Notes under the pieces: model-generated
The model's database searches: none
What the model was told of the DNA's origin: nothing
Seen by the model: the letters and a program-made list of their open reading frames with translations, nothing else
Translations under genes and position numbers: made by a program
DNA from: Chitinophagales bacterium
Lineage (GTDB): Bacteria > Bacteroidota > Bacteroidia > Chitinophagales > JADIYW01
Direction of reading: 5' to 3'
NCBI GenBank assembly: GCA_019694955.1
Contig: JAIBAX010000011.1
Location: 1-64,000, forward strand
DNA: 64,000 nucleotides
In this document: positions 25,407-59,589 of the stretch, piece after piece
How the letters are laid out: every line of letters begins with the position of its first letter
How positions within the stretch are numbered: position 1 is the first letter of the stretch

Positions 25407-25961
25407 AGATGTTGAAGGTTTATGGTAATTTGGAGATGTGAAGATATGGAAATTTGAAAATGTGAAGATTTGGAAATCTCGATAAATTGGGACAGGTTTT
25501 GGAGATGTGGGAATCTCTATAAATTGGGATAAGTTGTGAAGATTCGAAAATTTGGAAATGTGAAGAGTTCACGGATTGCAGACCACAACTGACGTCGCAG
25601 TACATTATAAGAACATCATTGTACTTTGTCACCAACAACAAAAAACTTATTCGTGTATTCGTGGCAAAAAAGTTCACGGTTCAAGGAGTATTAGGGACTT
25701 TGAAGATGAGGGAATCCCGATAAATCGGTGCAGGTTTTGGAGATATGAATATGTCGAAATAGGCAAACGAAAATCGCTATACTAATAACTAATCACCAAC
25801 TACTAAAGCCTTAATTGTCGCAATACGCAAATCGAATATCGCTATACTAATAACTTAATCACACTATTGTTAATAAAAATTACTATTTATTTGTTGTTTA
25901 GGGAACTCTTTTCGGTTATTTTTGTTATCTTATTTAGAATCATTATAAAAAAGGAAATATT
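25407..25961. repeat. Repeat-rich, non-coding spacer between DUF721 and trxA
   Basis: Composed of degenerate repeats rather than a gene. A unit of about 37 bases, GGAATC(T/C)CGATAAAT(T/C)GG followed by GACAGGTTTTGGAGATGTG, recurs at about 25471-25509, 25510-25546 and 25711-25747; between the first copies are many GATGTGAAGATTTGGAAAT-like words. A second motif, GTTCACGG, occurs at 25567 and 25672. The last 70 bases hold the trxA promoter. Short open frames here have repeat-derived compositions and are not believed. Confidence 0.7.
25891..25924 (+). promoter_or_regulatory. trxA promoter
   Basis: TTG at 25894-25896, then 20 bases, then TATTTTTG (25917-25924), a good fit to the Bacteroidota -33/-7 pattern. 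The start codon is 37 bases further and is preceded by AAAAAAGGAAA. Confidence 0.5.
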
Positions 25962-41936: not shown

Positions 41937-42890
41937 ATGATTAGCAGGAGAAGTGTTCGAATAAAAACCATGCAAGCGATTTATGCCTTTGAGCGATCAG
42001 AGGGTACGCCCGTCTTGCATTTTGAAACCTTATTGAAAAAAAGTATCAACTCTGTCAAAGAGCAATATATCTTTCATCTATTTCTAATTAGAGAAGTAGC
42101 CAATTTTGTTGACAAAATGGCTAAAATTAAGGCATCAAAATATATTCGCTCCGAGGCCGACAAACATTTCAGCACCAAGTTGCTCAGCAATATCTTTATC
42201 AATTATTTGAATCACGATAAGGAGTTTCTAGACCTAACAGAAATGTATCATTTTCAAAGACATGTAAATGATGATTTGATTAGAAAGTTGTATATGCAAC
42301 TCTCTGAAACTGAATTGTATCAAAGATATGTTCAAAATCCTGCTGAATTTGAGTTTGAAGCAGATAAGAAAATCATTAAAATGCTCTATGAAGAAGTGAT
42401 TCTGAATAGTGAAATGGTGAAAAGCCTGTTTGAAGAAATTTGGCCTACATGGGAAGATGATATCGCTTTCGTACATAGTACCGTTACAGAAGCCATTAAG
42501 AAAAGTAAAGAAGAATTGAAACTACATCTCGAAAGAGCCAATATTATGGATAAGTTTCAAGAGTTGATGACTTTTGCTTTGGAGTTGTTTAAAAAAACCA
42601 TCGATGAAAAGGAAAAGCAAATCGCGCTGTATGTGCCGAAACTTAAAAACTGGGAAGCTGATCGTTTAGCGATACTCGACCAAATCATTCTAAGAATGGC
42701 ACTGACAGAGTTTACTTGTTTTCCTTCTATACCACTAAAGGTTTCTATCAATGAATATTTAGACATTTCAAAGGAATTCAGCACACCTAAAAGCAAAGAC
42801 TTTATCAACGGTGTATTGGATAGACTGATGAAAGAACTTAAGGAGTCGGGAGCCATTAAGAAAATAGGTAGAGGGTTGATTAACAATTAA
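41937..42890 (+). CDS. nusB: Transcription antitermination factor NusB, long Bacteroidota form
   Basis: 317 residues, about twice the length of E. coli NusB. The N-terminus has the RNA-binding start SRRSVRIKTMQAIYAFE, and the C-terminal third shows the NusB core (WEADRLAILDQIILRMALTEF, KVSINEYLDISKEFSTPKSKDFINGVLD). The extra middle segment is helical and is typical of Bacteroidota homologs. Acts with NusE/S10 at boxA in rRNA transcription. Followed by a heptamer repeat and yajC. Confidence 0.93.
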   Translation: MISRRSVRIKTMQAIYAFERSEGTPVLHFETLLKKSINSVKEQYIFHLFLIREVANFVDKMAKIKASKYIRSEADKHFSTKLLSNIFINYLNHDKEFLDLTEMYHFQRHVNDDLIRKLYMQLSETELYQRYVQNPAEFEFEADKKIIKMLYEEVILNSEMVKSLFEEIWPTWEDDIAFVHSTVTEAIKKSKEELKLHLERANIMDKFQELMTFALELFKKTIDEKEKQIALYVPKLKNWEADRLAILDQIILRMALTEFTCFPSIPLKVSINEYLDISKEFSTPKSKDFINGVLDRLMKELKESGAIKKIGRGLINN

Positions 42891-42891
42891 T

Positions 42892-42937
42892 AATTATAAA
42901 TTATAAATTATAAATTATAAATTATAAATTATAAATT
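42892..42937 (+). repeat. AATTATA heptamer tandem repeat
   Basis: Six perfect AATTATA units (42892-42933) plus AATT, between nusB and yajC. AT-only heptamers of this kind can vary in copy number by slippage. Confidence 0.95.
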
Positions 42938-47785: not shown

Positions 47786-48799
47786 CTATATCTTCCAATT
47801 CTTCTCCAAATCGCTCACCCATGCCTTTACCAATGCCATTTCTTCCATGCCTACCCAACCGTTAGAGGTAAGTGATTCATAGCATTTGACTAAGTTGTCA
47901 GGAATGTTTGATACGCCTGAACTTAATGAAAGTCCTTCCAAGGCTTTACAAATCTTACTATTGTTTAAATAACCCGGAATTTCGTCTTCGAAATCTTTTA
48001 ATAGGTTGTGTTCATTTCTTTCTTGCCATACCGTTGGTTCGTGGTAGAGAATGCTCCAGCCATTCTCCCAAGAAACCCGCTGTGCTACATAGCTTCTCCA
48101 AATATCCGTCATTCTAAAGCTGCAATATGCCGGTAAATACAGCAACGGAAATGCTTCTTTGTACCAATACGTATTTTGTGAATTAAATGGACTCCAAGCA
48201 TTATTTCCTAAAGCCACTCTGGTGCTTATTTCAAAGTCTAAAGGCAATGGGTATGCCAACCTAAATACGGCATCCACATCCGGATTCTCGTCCGCAAGTC
48301 CTTGCTGAATAGGGCAGAGGATTTCCCTTTCGGTAAAAGAACTCAGTTCTGGGGTAGGTTTTTGCAATTCTTCCAAAGGAAGACCACGTGGCCAAATGAA
48401 TTTTTCTGTAAAATATTTATATACGTTTACCCAACCTTGCTCTTTAATATCATATGCTTTTACCATTCTTGTATGTTCATTCCAAAACGGCTCACGAGGC
48501 AAATTGTCATCGTCGGTTTCAACAATTTCATCTGTACCATTTTTCATTGCGATGAGGTATCCGATGTTCTTTCTTGCATAGTGGCGTGTTGGGCATATCT
48601 TGGCAAATTCAAGGTCTAATTGCAATTGCCGATCCACACTGTAGAAATCGCAACCTTCGATGTGGAATTGAGCGGGTGACTTGGTGTCGCCAATCATAAC
48701 GAAGTCGAGTCCTCTTGCGCTACATTCTTTTGCAAATGTGTGTAAAACCGGCATGGTATCCGGACCAATAGATGTGATAACCAATGTTTTTTTTGACAT
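47786..48799 (-). CDS. STELLO-type (DUF288) glycosyltransferase
   Basis: 337 residues from ATG 48799; an upstream in-frame ATG at 48880 would overlap the GT2 gene by 65 bases and adds a tail not seen in the domain. The start MSKKTLVITSIGPDTMPVL opens a Rossmann-like fold; VETDDDNLPRE is the DxD metal site and TRHYARKNIGYLIAM is family-typical. It shares an operon with the GT2 gene upstream; both probably build a surface glycan or glycolipid. Acceptor and donor unknown. Confidence 0.82.
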   Translation of the reverse strand: MSKKTLVITSIGPDTMPVLHTFAKECSARGLDFVMIGDTKSPAQFHIEGCDFYSVDRQLQLDLEFAKICPTRHYARKNIGYLIAMKNGTDEIVETDDDNLPREPFWNEHTRMVKAYDIKEQGWVNVYKYFTEKFIWPRGLPLEELQKPTPELSSFTEREILCPIQQGLADENPDVDAVFRLAYPLPLDFEISTRVALGNNAWSPFNSQNTYWYKEAFPLLYLPAYCSFRMTDIWRSYVAQRVSWENGWSILYHEPTVWQERNEHNLLKDFEDEIPGYLNNSKICKALEGLSLSSGVSNIPDNLVKCYESLTSNGWVGMEEMALVKAWVSDLEKNWKI

Positions 48800-48815
48800 A
48801 TTTCTTAGCTTATTC

Positions 48816-49550
48816 TTAAATTGTATAATGATTTCCTTTGATGCGCTCTTTAAAATACCATAAAAGTGTTTCATTGGCATTTTTGATGGCCTTGCTGCTT
48901 ACGCGGGGTGAGGGCGCCTGATAGTGGATAGGTACTTCAAAAATCCTCCTTTTGCGTAAGAGATACCTGAGTTCAGTTTGATAGAAATGAGCGGTTGATT
49001 TTAACTTATAGTCCAATATGGCCTTAATTACATTTCTATGAAATCCTTGAAACCCGGAAGTCATGTCGTGTAGCTTTGTGCCTAACAATATATTAGCGAG
49101 GGTCGTACCTGTTTTAGATAAAGTTCTTCTTTTGAAGGGAGAATCACCCATGCTGCCGCCATTGATAAACCTGCTGCCAAAGGCACATTCGTTGCCTTCA
49201 TTGAGTACCCTTAAAAACATAGGGATCGCCCTAGGGTCATGAGAAAGACCTGCATCCATTTCAATGATGAGTTCATGACCTCTATCATAAGCAACACGAA
49301 ATCCTTTCAGATACGCATCTACTACAGAGCGGTTTTCTGGGGCAAATACCGCCTCAAATCGAGGATCTTTCTTGGAAAGTTCTTGCGCCATTTCCAAAGT
49401 TCTGTCCTTACTCACATTGTCAATGATAAAATATATTTTCCCTGTTCCTTCAGCATCCAATACTTTTGTCAATAGTTCAACAAAAGGATTGAAGTCTTCT
49501 TCTTCATTTGCCATTGGGATAATTGCTGCCCAGTCTTGATAAACATACAT
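48816..49550 (-). CDS. Glycosyltransferase family 2
   Basis: 244 residues, GT-A fold: AAIIPMANEEEDF, IDNVSKDRT (nucleotide-sugar site), EMDAGLSHDPRAIP (DxD) and GSRFINGGSMGD are like dolichol-phosphate-mannose synthase-type GT2 enzymes. No membrane helices, so it works at the cytoplasmic face. Its stop is 17 bases from the STELLO-type gene's start. Confidence 0.9.
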   Translation of the reverse strand: MYVYQDWAAIIPMANEEEDFNPFVELLTKVLDAEGTGKIYFIIDNVSKDRTLEMAQELSKKDPRFEAVFAPENRSVVDAYLKGFRVAYDRGHELIIEMDAGLSHDPRAIPMFLRVLNEGNECAFGSRFINGGSMGDSPFKRRTLSKTGTTLANILLGTKLHDMTSGFQGFHRNVIKAILDYKLKSTAHFYQTELRYLLRKRRIFEVPIHYQAPSPRVSSKAIKNANETLLWYFKERIKGNHYTI

Positions 49551-50925: not shown

Positions 50926-53900
50926 TTATTGCATTAGCACAACCATTCCTTTTGTTTCAAACTTACTTCCGTAAATAGTTGTACCGCTAACGTTATAAAT
51001 ATAGGTGTCCACATTTTGTAGTTTCCCTTTAAAAGTTCCATCCCAACCAATGGTTTGCTCTGTGCTGGAAAATACTTTTTCTCCCCATCTATTAAATATT
51101 TCAAGATTTATCGTAGCAATTTCTTCACCTAAAACCATAAATACATCATTATTGCCATCGCCATTAGGAGAGAAGGCTGTAGGGACGAATACTACGGGTT
51201 TGTCATCCACCTGAATAACTGTACAAACTGTGTTAATACATCCTGAACTTGTCTCCGTTTCCGTTAAACAAATATTATAGTTGCCTGCAACGGTATAAGT
51301 ATGTGTTTCATCAAAATTGGTAGAAGTAGTGCCATCGCCAAAATTCCACACAAAAGTATTGGTTGGTTTAGATAAATTGTCTAAAACGACCTCATTCGCG
51401 CGAAGTACCGGATTTGGACTCGCCGTAAAATTCGGTGCGGGGCTTGTGCCAATAACAATATTTAGGATAGTGTCATCTTGTACATTACAGGTATTCGGAT
51501 TAGATGCCACCAATTTTACCTGAAAGACTCCTCCATTATCAAAATATTCACTAAAGCTCGATTCCGAATGTGTGATACCTCCCGGTAAAGTCCATAGTAA
51601 TGTGCTTGCATGTTGGCTTTGGCTATTGAACTGTATCTCAACAGGAGCGCAACCAGAGCCTGTATAGCTGGCAATAGCTTTGACTTCATTTAGCACGGTG
51701 ATAGATTTGACAATAGAGTCTTTCTTATTGCAACTATTTGCGACGATTAATTTAATGCTATAAGTTCCTTCCGTAGCATAGCTATGCGTTGGATTCTGGT
51801 CAGAAGAAGTGGTGCCATCGCCAAAATCCCAATTATATGTTTGACCGTTTGTAGATAAATCGGTAAAGTTTACCAATTGACCAATGCAAATTTTCCCTGC
51901 CGTATAATTGAAGTTGGCAGTAATCGCTCCCGATAAATCTTTTATCTCCAACGGTAGTGTTATGCTTTTTGTTACTGGGCAAGTATTGAAATTATTGGCG
52001 GTCAATTTTACATTAACTGTTCCAAAACTAGCATATGAATGACTGGGGCTTACCGCATCAATGGTGGAACCGTCACCAAACTCCCATACAAAAGTAGTAC
52101 CCAAAGAAGAAGTTGGTTGCGTTAAATTTGTGAATTGCCAAGACCTGCCATCACAAGGGCTGATATTGACAAATTCAAAATTAGGGATTAGTACATCTCT
52201 TTCTGTAATGGTAATTGCATTGGATGTCGCAGGGCAGCCATTTAAATCCACATTAACAACATAATCTCCACCACCATTGCCAACATATGTGCCACTATTC
52301 GCACCGGAAATATCAACGCCGTCTTTAACCCACTGGTAATGCGTCATTCCTGCGGTAGCACTTATATTTACTTGTTCCGTCGGACATATATTTGTGTTAA
52401 CTGCTACTATATTAACAGTAGGAATTGGCTTAATAGTAACATTGATGGTATTGGAAGTGCCTGGGCAATTATTCTTTCCAACGGCAACGGTATAAGCTCC
52501 TGTTGCAGATGCAGTATAGGTTGATGTGATTGCTCCAGAAATAATATTTCCATTTAAATACCATTGGTAATTATCCATTCCGGCAGTAGCAGATAAACCA
52601 ACAGAACTTCCCTGACAAACATATGTCGGTCCGGAAGGGGTTATAACGGAAGAAGGAATAGGATTTACGGTCATAGTAACGGTTGGCGCAGTGGCAGGAT
52701 TACCGGTAGCGCAACCTAAATCTGAGGTGAGTACGCATGAAACTTGATCTCCATTTTGAAAACTTGCATTGGTGTATGTTGCATTATTACTGCCAACATT
52801 TGCACCATTGAGTTTCCATTGATAGATTGGCACTGTTCCACCATTTACAGTATTTGCCGTAAAGGTAACTGAAGTGCCTGCGCAAATGGGATTGGCAGAT
52901 GGAGAAACATTTATTGATACCGGAAGTGCAGAATTGACCACCATATTGATAGCATTGGATGTGGCAGGACTTCCCGAAGGGCATTTGACATTGGAAGTCA
53001 AAGTACAGGTAATAATATCACCATTAGCAAGCGCATTATTAGCATAAGTTGCAGCATTACTGCCCACATTTACACCATTGAGTTTCCATTGATAAACAGG
53101 GGCTGTTCCACCATTTGTAGGCGTAGCCGTAAAAACGACATTGGTGCCTATACATATTGGATTAGATGAAGCCACTATTGACACATCCACAGGAAGAATA
53201 GGGTCTACCGTCATGATAATTGTATTGCTGGTGGCAGGGTTGCCCGTAGGGCAAGTAGCGTTTGAAGTAAGCGTACACTTAATCCTGTCGCCATTGTTCA
53301 ACGTATTGTTAGAATACGTTGCAGCGTTTGTTCCAACCGGATTATTGTTTAAATACCATTGATAAGTTGGAGCAGATCCTTGGTTCACCGGACTCGCAGT
53401 AAAAGTGATATTAGTGCCTTGACATAATACATTTTGCGAGGCTACGATAGAAACAGACACCGGTAGATTTGGATTTACAGCCATTGTAATTTCATTAGAA
53501 ATAGCCGGATTACCAGTAGGACATGTCGCATTCGAAGTTAAGGTACAGGTTATCTTGTCATTATTGGCTAAGGTATTATTGCTATAGCTTGCGCTGTTAG
53601 TGCCTACATTTACGCCATTGAGTTTCCATTGGTAAGAAGGATTTAAACCACCATTGACGGGAGAGGCTGTAAAGGTAACATTGGTATTTTGACAAATAGG
53701 GTTAGCGTTGGCTGCAATACCCACAGAAACAGGTAAGTTTGGATTGACCGTCATTGTAATAGCATTAGAAGTTGCCGGGCTACCTGATTTACATGTTTCA
53801 CTGGATGTAAGCACGCATGTGATAACATCATTATTCGCTAAAGCAGCACTACTATAGGTGTTGGAATTTGTTCCAACATTCACGCCATTTATTTTCCATT

Positions 53901-56900
53901 GAAAAGTTGGAGTAATACCTCCATTAACAGGTGTGGCAGTGAAGGTGACATTGGTTCCGGCACATATGGTGCTTGTATTTGCTGCAATACTGACAGAAAC
54001 AGGTTTAATAGGATTGACGGTCATAACGACCTGATTGGATGTTGCAGGGTTCCCGCTTGGGCAAATAGCATCCGAAGTAAGCACACAGGTGATTTTGTCA
54101 CCATTTGTTAATGTGTTATTGGAATAAGTTGTAGCATTTGTACCAACGTTTGCGCCATTGAGTTTCCATTGGTAAGCAGGAGTGGTGCCACCATTGGTAG
54201 GTGTTGCTGTAAAGGTTACGTTTGTTCCCGCACATATGGGGTTTGAACTGCTGTTAATGCTAACAGATACTGGCAAAACAGGATTTACCGTCATAGTAAT
54301 CTGATTGGAATTCGCAGGATTTCCGGTGGGGCAAACTGCATTTGAGGTAAGTGTACAAGTTATTTTATCACCATTTACTAATGTATTATTAGCATAAGTG
54401 GTGGCATTACTGCCCACATTAACGCCATTGAGCTTCCATTGATAAACAGGCACAGTACCTCCATTAGTTGGTGTTGCCGTAAATGTTACGTTCGTTCCGG
54501 CACAAATAGGATTTGCACTACTGTTTATACTGATGGATACTGGTAAATTCGGATTTACCGTCATAATAATTTGATTAGAAGTTGCTGGGCTTCCTGTCTT
54601 GCAATTTTCGCTGGAGGTAAGCACACAAGTAACCCGATCTCCATTTGTCAAAGTATTATTTGAATAAGTGGCCGAATTTGTGCCAACATTTACGCCATTG
54701 AGTTTCCATTGATAGGTAGGTGTTGCTCCTCCATTTGTTGGCGTGGCTGTAAACGTTACATTCGTTCCTGAGCAAATAATATTTGAGGAAGCAACTATAG
54801 ATACAGATACAGGTAAATTTGGATTTACAGTCATGGGGATAACATTGGAACTAGCCGGATTTCCGGTTGGACAAGTAGCATTAGAAGTAACCCTGCAAAA
54901 TATTACATCCCCATTATTTAAGGTATTATTGCTGTAAGAATTGCTGTTGACACCTACATTAGCCCCATTTAATTTCCATTGGTAGGTAGGTGAAGCGCCT
55001 CCATTAATTGCATTAGCGGTGAAAGTTACATTTGTACCCGCACAAATGGTATTATTGTCAGCGGCAATGGTAATGGATACAGGTAAGTTTGGATTTACCA
55101 CCATCGTTACTTGATTTGAAGTGGCAGGATTTCCGGATTTGCATATTAAGTTAGAAGTAAGTACACAGGTAATTTTATCGCCATTATTGAGGCCAGTGCT
55201 ACTAAAAGTTGGCGAATTTGCCCCAATATTGACTCCATTTAATTTCCATTGATAAGTAGGTGAACTACCTCCGTTTACTGGCGTTGCCGTAAAAAGAACA
55301 TTTGCACCAACACAAATAGGGTTGTTTGCTGTAGAGATAGAAACTGAAACAGGCTGGTTCGCAAAAACATCCATCGTAATTTGATTAGAACCAATGGATG
55401 GGCTTGCTACACAGGTTAAACTGGTTGTCATCGTACAGGTAATGACGTCATTGTCATTTAAAGTAGAGGATGAATAGGTGTTGCTATTGGTGCCTACGGG
55501 ATTGCCATTAATAAACCATTGATAGGAAGGTGTAGCTCCACCATTGGAAGGTGTTGCCGTAAATGTAACAGGATCGCCTTGACAAATAACGGGTGTTGCA
55601 GTACTAATACTGTTACCTAACGGTAATTTTGGATTGACAGTCATGGTAATAGTATTAGATGTAGCCGGGTTTCCTGTGGTACAACCTAAACTACTCGTCA
55701 ATTCTACCTTTATTTGGTCATTATTTGCTAATGATGAAGCGTTAAATGTGGCACTATTTGTACCCACTGGATTATTGTTTAAGTACCATTGGTAAACTGG
55801 TGTAGCACCTCCATTTGTTGGGTTAGCTGTAAAAGCTACATTACTGCCTTGACAAATTGGATTGGAAGAAGCATTAATACTTACTGACACGGTTTGCGGG
55901 CTACTTACCGACATCGTAATAGTATTGGAAGTAGCCGGACTTCCCGTAGCGCAGGTGGCATTAGAGGTGAGTACGCAAGTGATTTGGTCACCATTTGCTA
56001 ATGTTGAACTACTATACGTTGAAGCATTAGCGCCCACATTTACGCCATTCTTTTTCCATTGATAAACGGGTGTTGAACCCCCATTCGTAGGTGTAGCAGT
56101 AAAGGTGACGTTTGTACCGGAGCAAATTGAATTTGTTGAAGCAGCAATGCTAACACTAACAGGTAATGCCGGATTCACTGTCATGACAACATTTGAAGAA
56201 GTAGCAGGATTATTGGTAAGGCATGAGCCAGTTAATGTTAAAACACATGAAACGATATCGCCATTAGCAAAAGCAGTATTTGTATAGGTATTGGCATTGG
56301 TACCCACATTTGCACCGTTTAACTTCCATTGATAGACGGGAGAAAATGCAGCGTTGGCAGGTGTAGCTGAGAAAGTTACACTTGTGCCTGCACAAATGGG
56401 GTTAGCAGATGGTGCGATGTTTAAAACAACAGCATTTACGGTGTTTACCGTCATAGTAATAACATTCGAAGTTGCCGGATTTCCACTTGGACAGCCAATA
56501 TCGCTGGTTAAAGTAACTTTTACCTGATCATTATTATTCAAGGCAGCTGCCGGAATATAGGTTTGTGTATTGGTTCCGACGGGGTTATTGTTGAGATACC
56601 ATTGATATACAGGGTTAGTACCTTCGTTTGTAGGTATTGCAGAAAAGCTCACCGGATCTCCTGCACATATTTTATTGCTACTTACATTTGCTGTAACAGA
56701 AACAGGATTTATTGGGTTAACGGTCATGGTTAGTATGTTTGAACTGGCCGGACTGCCACTAACACAGGCGGCGTTGCTCGTCATCTCACAATATACCTGA
56801 TCATTATTTGCCAATGTAGTGGTAGTATAGGTCGTTGTAGTAGCTACTTGAACGCCATTTTTAAACCATTTATAACTAGGTGTTGATCCGCCGTTGATAG

Positions 56901-59589
56901 GCGTAGGAGTAAAGGTGACACTGGTGCCTGAACAGATATTATTGGCACTGGCATTAATGAGTACTGATGCCGTTACACTTGGTGTTACAGTCATGGTCAC
57001 GGTGTTGGAGGTTGCCGGATTTCCTGTTGGGCAAGTCGCATTGGAAGTCAGATCACATTTCACTTGATCACCATTCGCCAAAGAAGCATTCGAATAGGTG
57101 GCTGAGTTACTGCCAACAGGATTGCCATTTAAATACCACTGATATTGTGGTGTAGCGCCTCCATTGGTTGGTGTCGCTGTAAAAGTAACATTTGTTCCCG
57201 AACAAATCGGGTTGTTGTTGGCTGCAACAGAAACTGAAACGGCATTGTTAGCGTTTACAGTCATTGTTATTATATTCGACATGGCTGGATTTCCTGTTGC
57301 ACAACCACTAGAAGAAGTTAATTGACACTTTATTTTATCTCCATTTGCAGGAGTAATGGAATAAGTCGTACTATTTGTTCCTACCGGATTATTGTTCAAA
57401 TACCATTGGAAAGTGGGAGAAGCTCCGCCATTTCCGGGCGTTGCGGTAAAGGTGACATTTGTTCCGGCACAGATAGGGTTGCTGTTGACAGCTATGCTAT
57501 TAGAGACAGCTACGCTGGCCGTAACCGTCATCGTTATGGTATTGGAAGTGGCAGGACTGCCAGTAACACAGGCGGAATTGGATGTCATGACTACTTGAAT
57601 CTGATCGCCATTGTTGATGGTGGCTGGTGAATAAGTAGCACTGTTGCTACCTACATTCACACCATTCTTTTTCCATTGATAGGTAGGGGCGCTTCCACCG
57701 TTTACAGGGGTGGCCGTGAAGGTTACAGGGTTGCCGGGGCAAATGGGGTTTGCACTTGCCGCTATTGTTACGGAAGCAGCACCTGTAGGATTAACGGTCA
57801 TGGTAACTACATTGCTGGTTGCCGGATTGCCCGTAGGACAGGTAGCATTCGACGTTAGTGTTACTTTTATTTTGTCGCCATTTGTTAAGCTATTATTAGA
57901 ATAGGTAGCAGCATTAGAACCCACAGGATTATTGTTGAGGTACCACTGATAAGCAGGTGTTGTGCCGCCATTGGTAGGCGTGGCTGTAAAAGTAACGTTT
58001 GCTCCGGCACAAATAGGGTTGGAAGAAGCTGCGATGCTAACGGAAACCGGAAGATTTGGATTAACTGTTAGTACAATGCTATTCGAGTTTCCCGTACAAG
58101 TGCCATTGGAGACTTCTACATAATAAGTGCCTGCCAAGGTAGCCGTATAAGTATTTGTAGCAGCACCACCAATTAGAGTGCCATTTCTATACCATTTATA
58201 GGAGGTAAATCCTGTAGGTGCTGTTAAAACAGCATTGTCACCAGTGCAAAAATTGGTTTTATTGGCAGAAATGGAGACAGAAATATTATTATTAGGGACG
58301 GTTATTGTGTAAGCGATAAAATCAGCACAAGCACCATTGCCAATGTTTAGGATAGCGGGGTATGTGCCGGGCGTGTTGTAAGTAACGGTATGTGGGCCCA
58401 CGCCTGATGCAGTAGAAGGGGTGGCATTGGGACCAAAGTTCCAGCTATAATTGCCACCATTGGTAGAAGCATCCGTGAATTGGAAAACATTGCTACAACT
58501 GCCACCCACTTGCGCATAAGTGAAATCCGCCTTTAAAGCATCGATTTCTGCCATGCCGGCACCGGGAGGATTGAAGGAAATGGAGAAGCCATTGCCGGAA
58601 GAAGTGAAATTATTTACAAGAATGCCGTAAGTTTTACCCGCAACTAAATCTACATATTTTAACCATCCATTCTTTTTAGAAGCATTTGGTGTCGAATATA
58701 CGCAGTCGTTCCCAACCGAAGGGTCTTCATTTGTATCAGTGGAAGTTAAGTCAAGCCCTAATAGACCTCCTCTATTAAGGCAAGCAGAAGCATTGCATCT
58801 TAATAATGTCTTAGGAGTACAGCTATTTGGTCCGTTTGGTAATTCAAACATGGCAAAGTCTAAGTCGTCACCAAGTGCAGTAGGTGTAATTGTGAAAGTG
58901 AATTTCCCAGATTTAGAACAAGTGAATTTCATCCAACTCGAAGCGGTTTCTGAGTTTTGAGGGCCGTTATTATCATCGAGACAAGATAAATTGGCTTCAT
59001 CAGGAACGCTTCCTGAACCTGCTTTGAATTGGAATGTGGCCGTACTGTTCGTGCAAAGAAAAGGCCCAGTGATACAGTCTGATTGTGCAGCTGGGGTCGG
59101 GAGGTAGTTGTTTATACAAAGTTGAAATGTACCGCCATTGGCTACTGTTCTTGAGTTTACGCGTATGTAATAAGTGGTAAACGGAATTAGACCTCCTTTA
59201 TAGAGACTTACAAAATGCTGGTTAGGCTGAGAGGTAGCACAAGCTAACTCATTGATTGTTCCAGAGCAATTACCGGAGTATAATGCAATTTCCGGTGTTT
59301 TCATTGTTCCGTTGCCAAAGATGTCGCCATTGATTTGAATGGTAACATCAGATGCAATGGCTGTGAATTTAAACCATACGTCATTATTATTTATAGCCCA
59401 ACATCCTGGCTTGCCAAAACCACTTGTAGTAGCTCCCGTATTTGTAAATTGACCCGGGGCGGAACAATAATCATTTACATCAGTTAGATTATATCCTAAC
59501 TGACACTCATCACCTTGTGCAGCAACATAGTTCTGAATTCCAATAAAAAACATTAGCCATAAACATAGCTTCTTTAAGCTTCTTCCCAT
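50926..59589 (-). CDS. Giant T9SS-secreted repeat protein (Ig-like and PKD repeats, type B sorting domain)
   Basis: 2887 residues. Order: signal peptide (1-24, NYVAAQ); two beta-rich N-terminal modules with W and Cys pairs; a PKD-like domain (about 360-435); one short Ig-like domain; 20 tandem Ig-like repeats of about 90 residues (52657-58053), consensus pieces ICAGTNVTFTATPTNGG, YQWKLNGVNVGTNS, LTSNATCPTGNPATSN and MTVNP; two shorter Ig-like domains; four PKD-like domains (FVWEFGDGSTI, YNWDFGDGTTS, FVWNFGDGTTS); and a T9SS type B/gliding-associated C-terminal domain (VPTAFSPNGDGNNDVF, NRWGEKVFSS, GWDGTFKG). Each repeat has two Cys. It is likely a surface adhesin or filament exported by T9SS. 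Confidence 0.93.
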   Translation of the reverse strand: MGRSLKKLCLWLMFFIGIQNYVAAQGDECQLGYNLTDVNDYCSAPGQFTNTGATTSGFGKPGCWAINNNDVWFKFTAIASDVTIQINGDIFGNGTMKTPEIALYSGNCSGTINELACATSQPNQHFVSLYKGGLIPFTTYYIRVNSRTVANGGTFQLCINNYLPTPAAQSDCITGPFLCTNSTATFQFKAGSGSVPDEANLSCLDDNNGPQNSETASSWMKFTCSKSGKFTFTITPTALGDDLDFAMFELPNGPNSCTPKTLLRCNASACLNRGGLLGLDLTSTDTNEDPSVGNDCVYSTPNASKKNGWLKYVDLVAGKTYGILVNNFTSSGNGFSISFNPPGAGMAEIDALKADFTYAQVGGSCSNVFQFTDASTNGGNYSWNFGPNATPSTASGVGPHTVTYNTPGTYPAILNIGNGACADFIAYTITVPNNNISVSISANKTNFCTGDNAVLTAPTGFTSYKWYRNGTLIGGAATNTYTATLAGTYYVEVSNGTCTGNSNSIVLTVNPNLPVSVSIAASSNPICAGANVTFTATPTNGGTTPAYQWYLNNNPVGSNAATYSNNSLTNGDKIKVTLTSNATCPTGNPATSNVVTMTVNPTGAASVTIAASANPICPGNPVTFTATPVNGGSAPTYQWKKNGVNVGSNSATYSPATINNGDQIQVVMTSNSACVTGSPATSNTITMTVTASVAVSNSIAVNSNPICAGTNVTFTATPGNGGASPTFQWYLNNNPVGTNSTTYSITPANGDKIKCQLTSSSGCATGNPAMSNIITMTVNANNAVSVSVAANNNPICSGTNVTFTATPTNGGATPQYQWYLNGNPVGSNSATYSNASLANGDQVKCDLTSNATCPTGNPATSNTVTMTVTPSVTASVLINASANNICSGTSVTFTPTPINGGSTPSYKWFKNGVQVATTTTYTTTTLANNDQVYCEMTSNAACVSGSPASSNILTMTVNPINPVSVTANVSSNKICAGDPVSFSAIPTNEGTNPVYQWYLNNNPVGTNTQTYIPAAALNNNDQVKVTLTSDIGCPSGNPATSNVITMTVNTVNAVVLNIAPSANPICAGTSVTFSATPANAAFSPVYQWKLNGANVGTNANTYTNTAFANGDIVSCVLTLTGSCLTNNPATSSNVVMTVNPALPVSVSIAASTNSICSGTNVTFTATPTNGGSTPVYQWKKNGVNVGANASTYSSSTLANGDQITCVLTSNATCATGSPATSNTITMSVSSPQTVSVSINASSNPICQGSNVAFTANPTNGGATPVYQWYLNNNPVGTNSATFNASSLANNDQIKVELTSSLGCTTGNPATSNTITMTVNPKLPLGNSISTATPVICQGDPVTFTATPSNGGATPSYQWFINGNPVGTNSNTYSSSTLNDNDVITCTMTTSLTCVASPSIGSNQITMDVFANQPVSVSISTANNPICVGANVLFTATPVNGGSSPTYQWKLNGVNIGANSPTFSSTGLNNGDKITCVLTSNLICKSGNPATSNQVTMVVNPNLPVSITIAADNNTICAGTNVTFTANAINGGASPTYQWKLNGANVGVNSNSYSNNTLNNGDVIFCRVTSNATCPTGNPASSNVIPMTVNPNLPVSVSIVASSNIICSGTNVTFTATPTNGGATPTYQWKLNGVNVGTNSATYSNNTLTNGDRVTCVLTSSENCKTGSPATSNQIIMTVNPNLPVSISINSSANPICAGTNVTFTATPTNGGTVPVYQWKLNGVNVGSNATTYANNTLVNGDKITCTLTSNAVCPTGNPANSNQITMTVNPVLPVSVSINSSSNPICAGTNVTFTATPTNGGTTPAYQWKLNGANVGTNATTYSNNTLTNGDKITCVLTSDAICPSGNPATSNQVVMTVNPIKPVSVSIAANTSTICAGTNVTFTATPVNGGITPTFQWKINGVNVGTNSNTYSSAALANNDVITCVLTSSETCKSGSPATSNAITMTVNPNLPVSVGIAANANPICQNTNVTFTASPVNGGLNPSYQWKLNGVNVGTNSASYSNNTLANNDKITCTLTSNATCPTGNPAISNEITMAVNPNLPVSVSIVASQNVLCQGTNITFTASPVNQGSAPTYQWYLNNNPVGTNAATYSNNTLNNGDRIKCTLTSNATCPTGNPATSNTIIMTVDPILPVDVSIVASSNPICIGTNVVFTATPTNGGTAPVYQWKLNGVNVGSNAATYANNALANGDIITCTLTSNVKCPSGSPATSNAINMVVNSALPVSINVSPSANPICAGTSVTFTANTVNGGTVPIYQWKLNGANVGSNNATYTNASFQNGDQVSCVLTSDLGCATGNPATAPTVTMTVNPIPSSVITPSGPTYVCQGSSVGLSATAGMDNYQWYLNGNIISGAITSTYTASATGAYTVAVGKNNCPGTSNTINVTIKPIPTVNIVAVNTNICPTEQVNISATAGMTHYQWVKDGVDISGANSGTYVGNGGGDYVVNVDLNGCPATSNAITITERDVLIPNFEFVNISPCDGRSWQFTNLTQPTSSLGTTFVWEFGDGSTIDAVSPSHSYASFGTVNVKLTANNFNTCPVTKSITLPLEIKDLSGAITANFNYTAGKICIGQLVNFTDLSTNGQTYNWDFGDGTTSSDQNPTHSYATEGTYSIKLIVANSCNKKDSIVKSITVLNEVKAIASYTGSGCAPVEIQFNSQSQHASTLLWTLPGGITHSESSFSEYFDNGGVFQVKLVASNPNTCNVQDDTILNIVIGTSPAPNFTASPNPVLRANEVVLDNLSKPTNTFVWNFGDGTTSTNFDETHTYTVAGNYNICLTETETSSGCINTVCTVIQVDDKPVVFVPTAFSPNGDGNNDVFMVLGEEIATINLEIFNRWGEKVFSSTEQTIGWDGTFKGKLQNVDTYIYNVSGTTIYGSKFETKGMVVLMQ
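52657..58053 (-). repeat. Twenty tandem about 270-bp repeats in the giant protein gene
   Basis: Counted by translation: 20 units of 88-91 codons, average just under 90. Neighbouring units such as 13-15 (about 54000-54850) are especially alike, pointing to recent unequal recombination, while units 5, 7 and 10 are more diverged. Confidence 0.9.

Follow-up and report, generated by a model that had tools for sequence, protein, structure and literature searches.

The 64,000-nucleotide window analyzed here, the whole stretch of Chitinophagales DNA under study, encodes a giant protein that is probably a surface-anchored adhesin of the type B class of T9SS substrates, with an orphan shuttle arrangement and an unusually long stalk of Ig-like domains. 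Though well built, it is fairly ordinary in kind and falls within an established class of bacterial surface adhesins. Greater interest attaches to the family of its head, in which the stalk is exchangeable and a neighboring shuttle gene is consistently lacking, and to the presence of both an old and a young array of the same unit in one genome. We propose that the protein would be exported by Sec and taken across the outer membrane by the T9SS, and that its type B C-terminal domain would then hold it at the surface through a shuttle of the PorP/SprF family whose gene lies in another part of the genome. Its nearly 30 Ig and PKD beads would form a stalk that keeps an N-terminal head of two β-sandwich domains at a distance from the cell, and this head may bind a carbohydrate or protein surface there. 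Crudely, the stalk would reach 80 nm if it is extended like the related GhlA filament, whose 6,596 aa span 180 nm (PMC13319060).

Gene and domain order

The gene occupies positions 50926..59589 of the minus strand as one intact open reading frame of 2,887 codons, with its start at 59589 and its stop at 50926, and specifies a protein of 2,887 aa, about 298 kDa, and a pI of 4.8. An earlier note on this DNA had given the coordinates exactly for one open frame, leaving the strand unstated. The N-terminus has the typical look of a Sec signal peptide when read by eye, with a basic n-region, a hydrophobic core, and an AAQ end (putative, aa 1-25, MGRSLKKLCLWLMFFIGIQNYVAAQ; 59515..59589, minus strand). 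The head follows (aa 26-345; 58555..59514, minus strand) and comprises two predicted β-sandwich domains, the first of which resembles GBD_T9SS_assoc at 24.4 bits, below the cut-off of 27. At the end of the head lies a PKD domain (about aa 346-436; 58282..58554, minus strand), which at 20.6 bits is under the profile cut-off when taken alone and which Foldseek matches to the solved PKD domain 4l9d with a TM of 0.79 by target. A single degenerate Ig_7-like unit (aa 437-510; 58060..58281, minus strand) precedes the stalk of 20 tandem Ig-like units, U1-U20, each of 89-91 aa (aa 511-2308; 52666..58059, minus strand). Beyond the stalk are two divergent Ig_7/PKD_3-like domains (aa 2309-2462; 52204..52665, minus strand), four PKD domains (aa 2463-2792; 51214..52203, minus strand), and, in the last 95 aa, the type B T9SS sorting domain (CHU_C/TIGR04131; 50929..51213, minus strand). 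The 20 tandem Ig-like units of about 90 aa that the earlier note had counted are confirmed, and the core motifs quoted for them are present as given. They do not stand alone: the 20 regular units are flanked by the degenerate unit before them and the two Ig-like and four PKD domains after them.

The genes flanking the giant gene are housekeeping or unrelated. Upstream lies a thioesterase on the opposite strand; downstream, an 83-aa ORF lacking a Pfam match is followed by an aldo/keto reductase on the opposite strand. Also downstream, at 47786-49550 of the window, a family 2 glycosyltransferase gene and a STELLO-like glycosyltransferase gene overlap on the minus strand. Elsewhere in the window, about 6.6 error-free copies of AATTATA occupy 42885-42937, immediately after an ORF ending at 42890, and short tandem repeats of 24 and 37 bp lie between ORFs at 25421-25543.

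Fold and age of the Ig-like units

Structure prediction of the repeat had been put forward in the earlier note as a check: AlphaFold2, given an alignment of the other three-unit stretches of the window array, folded U13-U15 confidently as Ig domains (pLDDT 96.4, pTM 0.72). When this model was searched with Foldseek, GhpA stalk fragments made up six of the seven best matches (E 8e-10 and above). VIA-align ranked second the stalk of an ice-binding adhesin (5irb, a 1.5-MDa adhesin; Z 11.0, 261 residues aligned, rmsd 6.8), and also matched Fc receptor Ig domains at a Z of about 10 (81 residues aligned, rmsd 2.4-2.5 Å). The whole protein passes Pfam Ig_7 with 110.4 bits; the single units tested, U1 (20.6 bits) and U15 (16.8 bits), do not reach the gathering score of 27.3 bits. 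The units are predicted, with high confidence, to have an Ig β-sandwich fold. A sign of the correct fold that is independent of the AlphaFold2 model comes from columns 40 and 66, neighbors in the Ig sheet, which covary. Tyr40 (strand C) pairs with Lys66 (strand F) in 6 of 6 window units and in 0 of the 14 others (p 2.6e-5), and Lys40 and Lys66 never occur together in 87 units from ten proteins (p 1e-4, or 0.025 without the window protein), these p-values ignoring the shared ancestry of the units and referring to a column pair chosen after the alignment had been viewed.

Cysteines stand at unit columns 17 and 75 in all 20 units, and this pair would probably cross-brace U1-U20 in their role as spacers. 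The earlier note had assigned two cysteines to each repeat, which is accurate for this invariant pair and overlooks a third cysteine at column 67 (strand F) in 16 of the 20 units, replaced by Val in units 1, 2, 6, and 9. The column-67 residue gives those 16 units an odd number of cysteines. This counts against a simple spacer model, under which the unpaired-looking third cysteine has no explanation.

An odd cysteine in each unit could permit links between chains, as would suit a protein that oligomerizes into a multi-stranded filament and captures other cells as a grappling hook, as GhpA does in Aureispira. Among solved proteins, GhpA is the nearest relative in both structure and sequence (E 2.4e-36 over aa 2130-2462), and a weak alignment also links its C-terminus to the type B tail of the window protein (E 0.056). 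However, the Ig_7 domains that the two proteins share are common in the phylum, and the window protein is half the length of GhpA. The hook is the less likely reading, and in our judgment a very improbable one, because a search with the head at E up to 1 returned no GhpA match and no T6SS sheath (VipB/TssC, PF05943) was found in the genome by a search that could miss divergent sheaths.

Whatever the stalk of the proposed adhesin does, its units are old. The residues Cys17, Phe24, Asn30, Pro35, Trp39, Asn42, Asp63, Thr70, Cys75, Met88, and Val90 are common to all 20, and pairwise amino-acid identity averages about 60% with a maximum of 82% (U14/U15); in DNA, no two units exceed 75% identity. 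Synonymous sites have reached saturation (mean pS 0.74; 0.57 in the lowest pair), non-synonymous differences are far fewer (mean pN 0.29), and where two units share a residue, its codon is the same 41-42% of the time, codon usage predicting 39% by chance. Since synonymous sites are saturated, codon identity is near chance, and pN is low, the array must be ancient and has been kept by selection at the protein level. The combination of regular motifs with saturated codons under a conserved protein also excludes chance as the source of the 20 units. Adjacent units agree in codon slightly more often than the units do overall (0.447 versus 0.414; permutation p 0.008), a slight remnant of their tandem origin.

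These results do not favor the proposal in the earlier note that the length of the array may change by recombination, which had been based on units 13-15 being nearly alike. The three U13-U15 pairs share 73, 78, and 82% of their amino acids and 71, 69, and 75% of their DNA, which is merely the upper end of a continuum across the array, and codon saturation rules out their recent expansion. With almost no residual codon identity and only a small excess between adjacent units, recombinational length change is unsupported for the present. Recent exchange of units with other arrays of the same genome was rejected as well, the best DNA identity between genes being 69% and codon identity near chance. 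Exact repeats within the giant gene are 26 bp at the longest, which makes assembly collapse an unlikely source of the count of 20. Over long times stalk length has changed widely, head-family relatives in other genera having 1-3 units or none.

A second protein of the same genome (G000:C81:64925-69695; L121) contains ten full copies of the window Ig unit in 1,592 aa, with as much as 62% identity to those of the giant gene, and differs from the window protein in its type A sorting domain and its N-terminal part. Its units 1-3 and 7-9 hardly differ from one another (pS 0.09-0.32 between neighbors, DNA identity as high as 97%), marking it as a recently amplified, active sister array, a pattern that the window gene does not show. 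The frame of this gene reaches the contig end, and an exact repeat of 122 bp in it brings a risk of assembly collapse. A single genome thus holds both an old array, with codon identity near chance, and a recently amplified array of the same Ig unit, and tandem repeats in such giant surface proteins need not imply ongoing length variation.

Further arrays and duplicates were seen. Two contig-edge fragments of the same genome, G000:C28:37021-39638 and G000:C39:1-329 (L123, L125), have nearly identical type B tails; the C28 gene begins within an Ig array at a contig end, where assembly is at risk, and points to another Ig-array type B protein that was broken by assembly and may be duplicated. At G000:C63:57000-63518 (L136), two adjacent type B genes of 1,030 and 1,041 aa have almost identical starts and tails, apparently through recent duplication. 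In another family of the order, a 4,840-aa frame (L127; G038:C11:45000-63000) carries 21 units of the window Ig repeat and a type A-like tail, so that type A and type B proteins alike contain the unit.

Sorting tail, shuttle genes, and head family

The C-terminus of the giant protein exceeds the cut-offs of both TIGR04131 for type B domains (51.9 bits versus 35) and PF13585, CHU_C (54.3 bits versus 27). The genome encodes PorP, PorK, PorL, PorM, and PorN in a single cluster (contig C35), together with SprA, GldJ, GldB, and seven PorP/SprF proteins; its T9SS and gliding-type gene set is complete, and the tails scoring above cut-off number about 21 of type B and more than 110 of type A. The assignment to type B T9SS proteins made in the earlier note is thereby upheld, in agreement with published work in which PorP/SprF shuttles carry type B tails and type B tails retain adhesins at the surface (PMC12618676, PMC10202324).

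That note had further envisaged a surface filament or matrix. The surface location is consistent with the tail, but the matrix is less well supported, as tested type B tails anchored cargo to cells. A matrix or S-layer-like scaffold released from the cell would agree with the very large size of the protein and with its Thr/Asn/Ser-rich, near-neutral array. Against it, the SprB type B tail in swap experiments anchored to the cell cargo that is otherwise handled differently (PMC12618676), and the gene is single-copy with a distinct conserved head, unlike that of a lattice subunit, which together make the scaffold improbable.

No PorP/SprF gene was found in the window, the seven being elsewhere in the genome, and no sprF-type gene lies directly downstream of the giant gene. 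The missing neighbor does not exclude type B membership, because known orphan type B substrates also lack an adjacent shuttle gene (PMC12618676). In Flavobacterium johnsoniae, a single distant shuttle is used by three orphan type B tails that are >44% identical (PMC12618676). The window tail shares 57-59% of its residues with tails encoded in its own genome at C86:15909, C28/C39, and C13, and no PorP was found near these genes in the stretches searched, where contig ends truncate the genes on C13, C28, and C39. By elimination only, a candidate for a shared shuttle of the orphan type B tails is the PorP/SprF-family gene next to mnmG (G000:C67:40439-41407; L131), which has no type B gene in its vicinity.

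The gliding-type gene set invites comparison with motility adhesins of the SprB type; on this reading the type B tail would link the protein to a gliding track in motion, and the cell would be dragged along by the stalk. The genes for GldJ, GldB, SprA, and PorK-N are all present, and some type B tails do move on a helical track, including part of the population bearing the orphan tail of Fjoh_1123 (PMC12618676). Molecules with this published orphan tail were, however, mostly static (PMC12618676); moreover, the giant gene, unlike sprB, has no adjacent sprF-like gene, and its stalk is built of Ig units and not of SprB repeats. We therefore regard a role in motility as unlikely, and as less likely than that of a stalked adhesin.

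What the proposed adhesin might bind depends on its head, for which a search of GTDB genomes returned >400 related loci, the best about 40% identical. The best 80 of these are mostly from Saprospiraceae and mostly from MAGs. The 77 complete frames have a median of 947 aa, the longest reaching 2,040 aa; a simple motif test recognizes a type B-like tail in most complete members, and those scanned for CHU_C pass. The middle part varies: L038 and L100 have SprB repeats, L082 has Ig units, and the window protein has its 20 Ig units. Among 12 genomes of the window's own GTDB family, three others carry the full head: the genes of G002 and G004 are intact frames with three matching Ig units each, and that of G010 runs off its contig. 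No full-length head paralogue was found in the own genome, and no tested neighbor is shared with the head-family loci, except for a weak aldehyde dehydrogenase match near L120. The best fold match of the head, the collagen-binding tandem of ColG, is weak (E 6e-7, TM 0.24), and such β-sandwiches are common, which counts against the adhesin reading.

With a profile built from the seven own PorP copies, PorP was detected beside only one head-family locus (L112), many contigs of the family being short, with part of the neighbors outside view; the same profile readily detects PorP beside eight other type B genes of relatives. Taken together, these observations allow a broader proposal, which we advance tentatively. 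A Saprospiraceae family may keep the head and the type B tail and swap the stalk (SprB repeats versus 1 to 20 Ig units), almost never beside a shuttle gene, and all the orphans may rely on a single PorP/SprF shuttle in common; the length of the stalk would then be selected and stable and not driven by recombination. The family-wide absence of a neighboring shuttle gene makes a good test case for the matching of orphan type B tails to shuttles.

Comparison with known giant surface proteins

SprB of Flavobacterium johnsoniae is, like the window protein, a very large, repetitive protein of the surface adhesin class with a type B sorting domain, and its repeats (PF13573) are carried by the window head family in other species. 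SprB has 6,497 aa and sprF downstream, whereas the window protein has an Ig-like stalk and no adjoining shuttle gene. GhpA of Aureispira sp. CCB-QB1 (PDB 9flp, 9fls, 9flu, 9flw, 9flx, 9g8b) is likewise giant, of the T9SS class, and built on long Ig-like arrays. It has 5,898 aa, is heptameric, and is part of a predation system with a T6SS, whereas the head of the window protein does not match it and no T6SS sheath was found in the genome. The head-family proteins, such as L038, L082, and L100, share with the window protein the two β-sandwich domains and the PKD domain (about 40% identity) as well as the type B tail. At about 950 aa, these relatives have a middle part of SprB repeats or 1-3 Ig units, compared with 20 in the window protein, and the giant repeat protein is now placed with them in a definable family of head, stalk, and tail.
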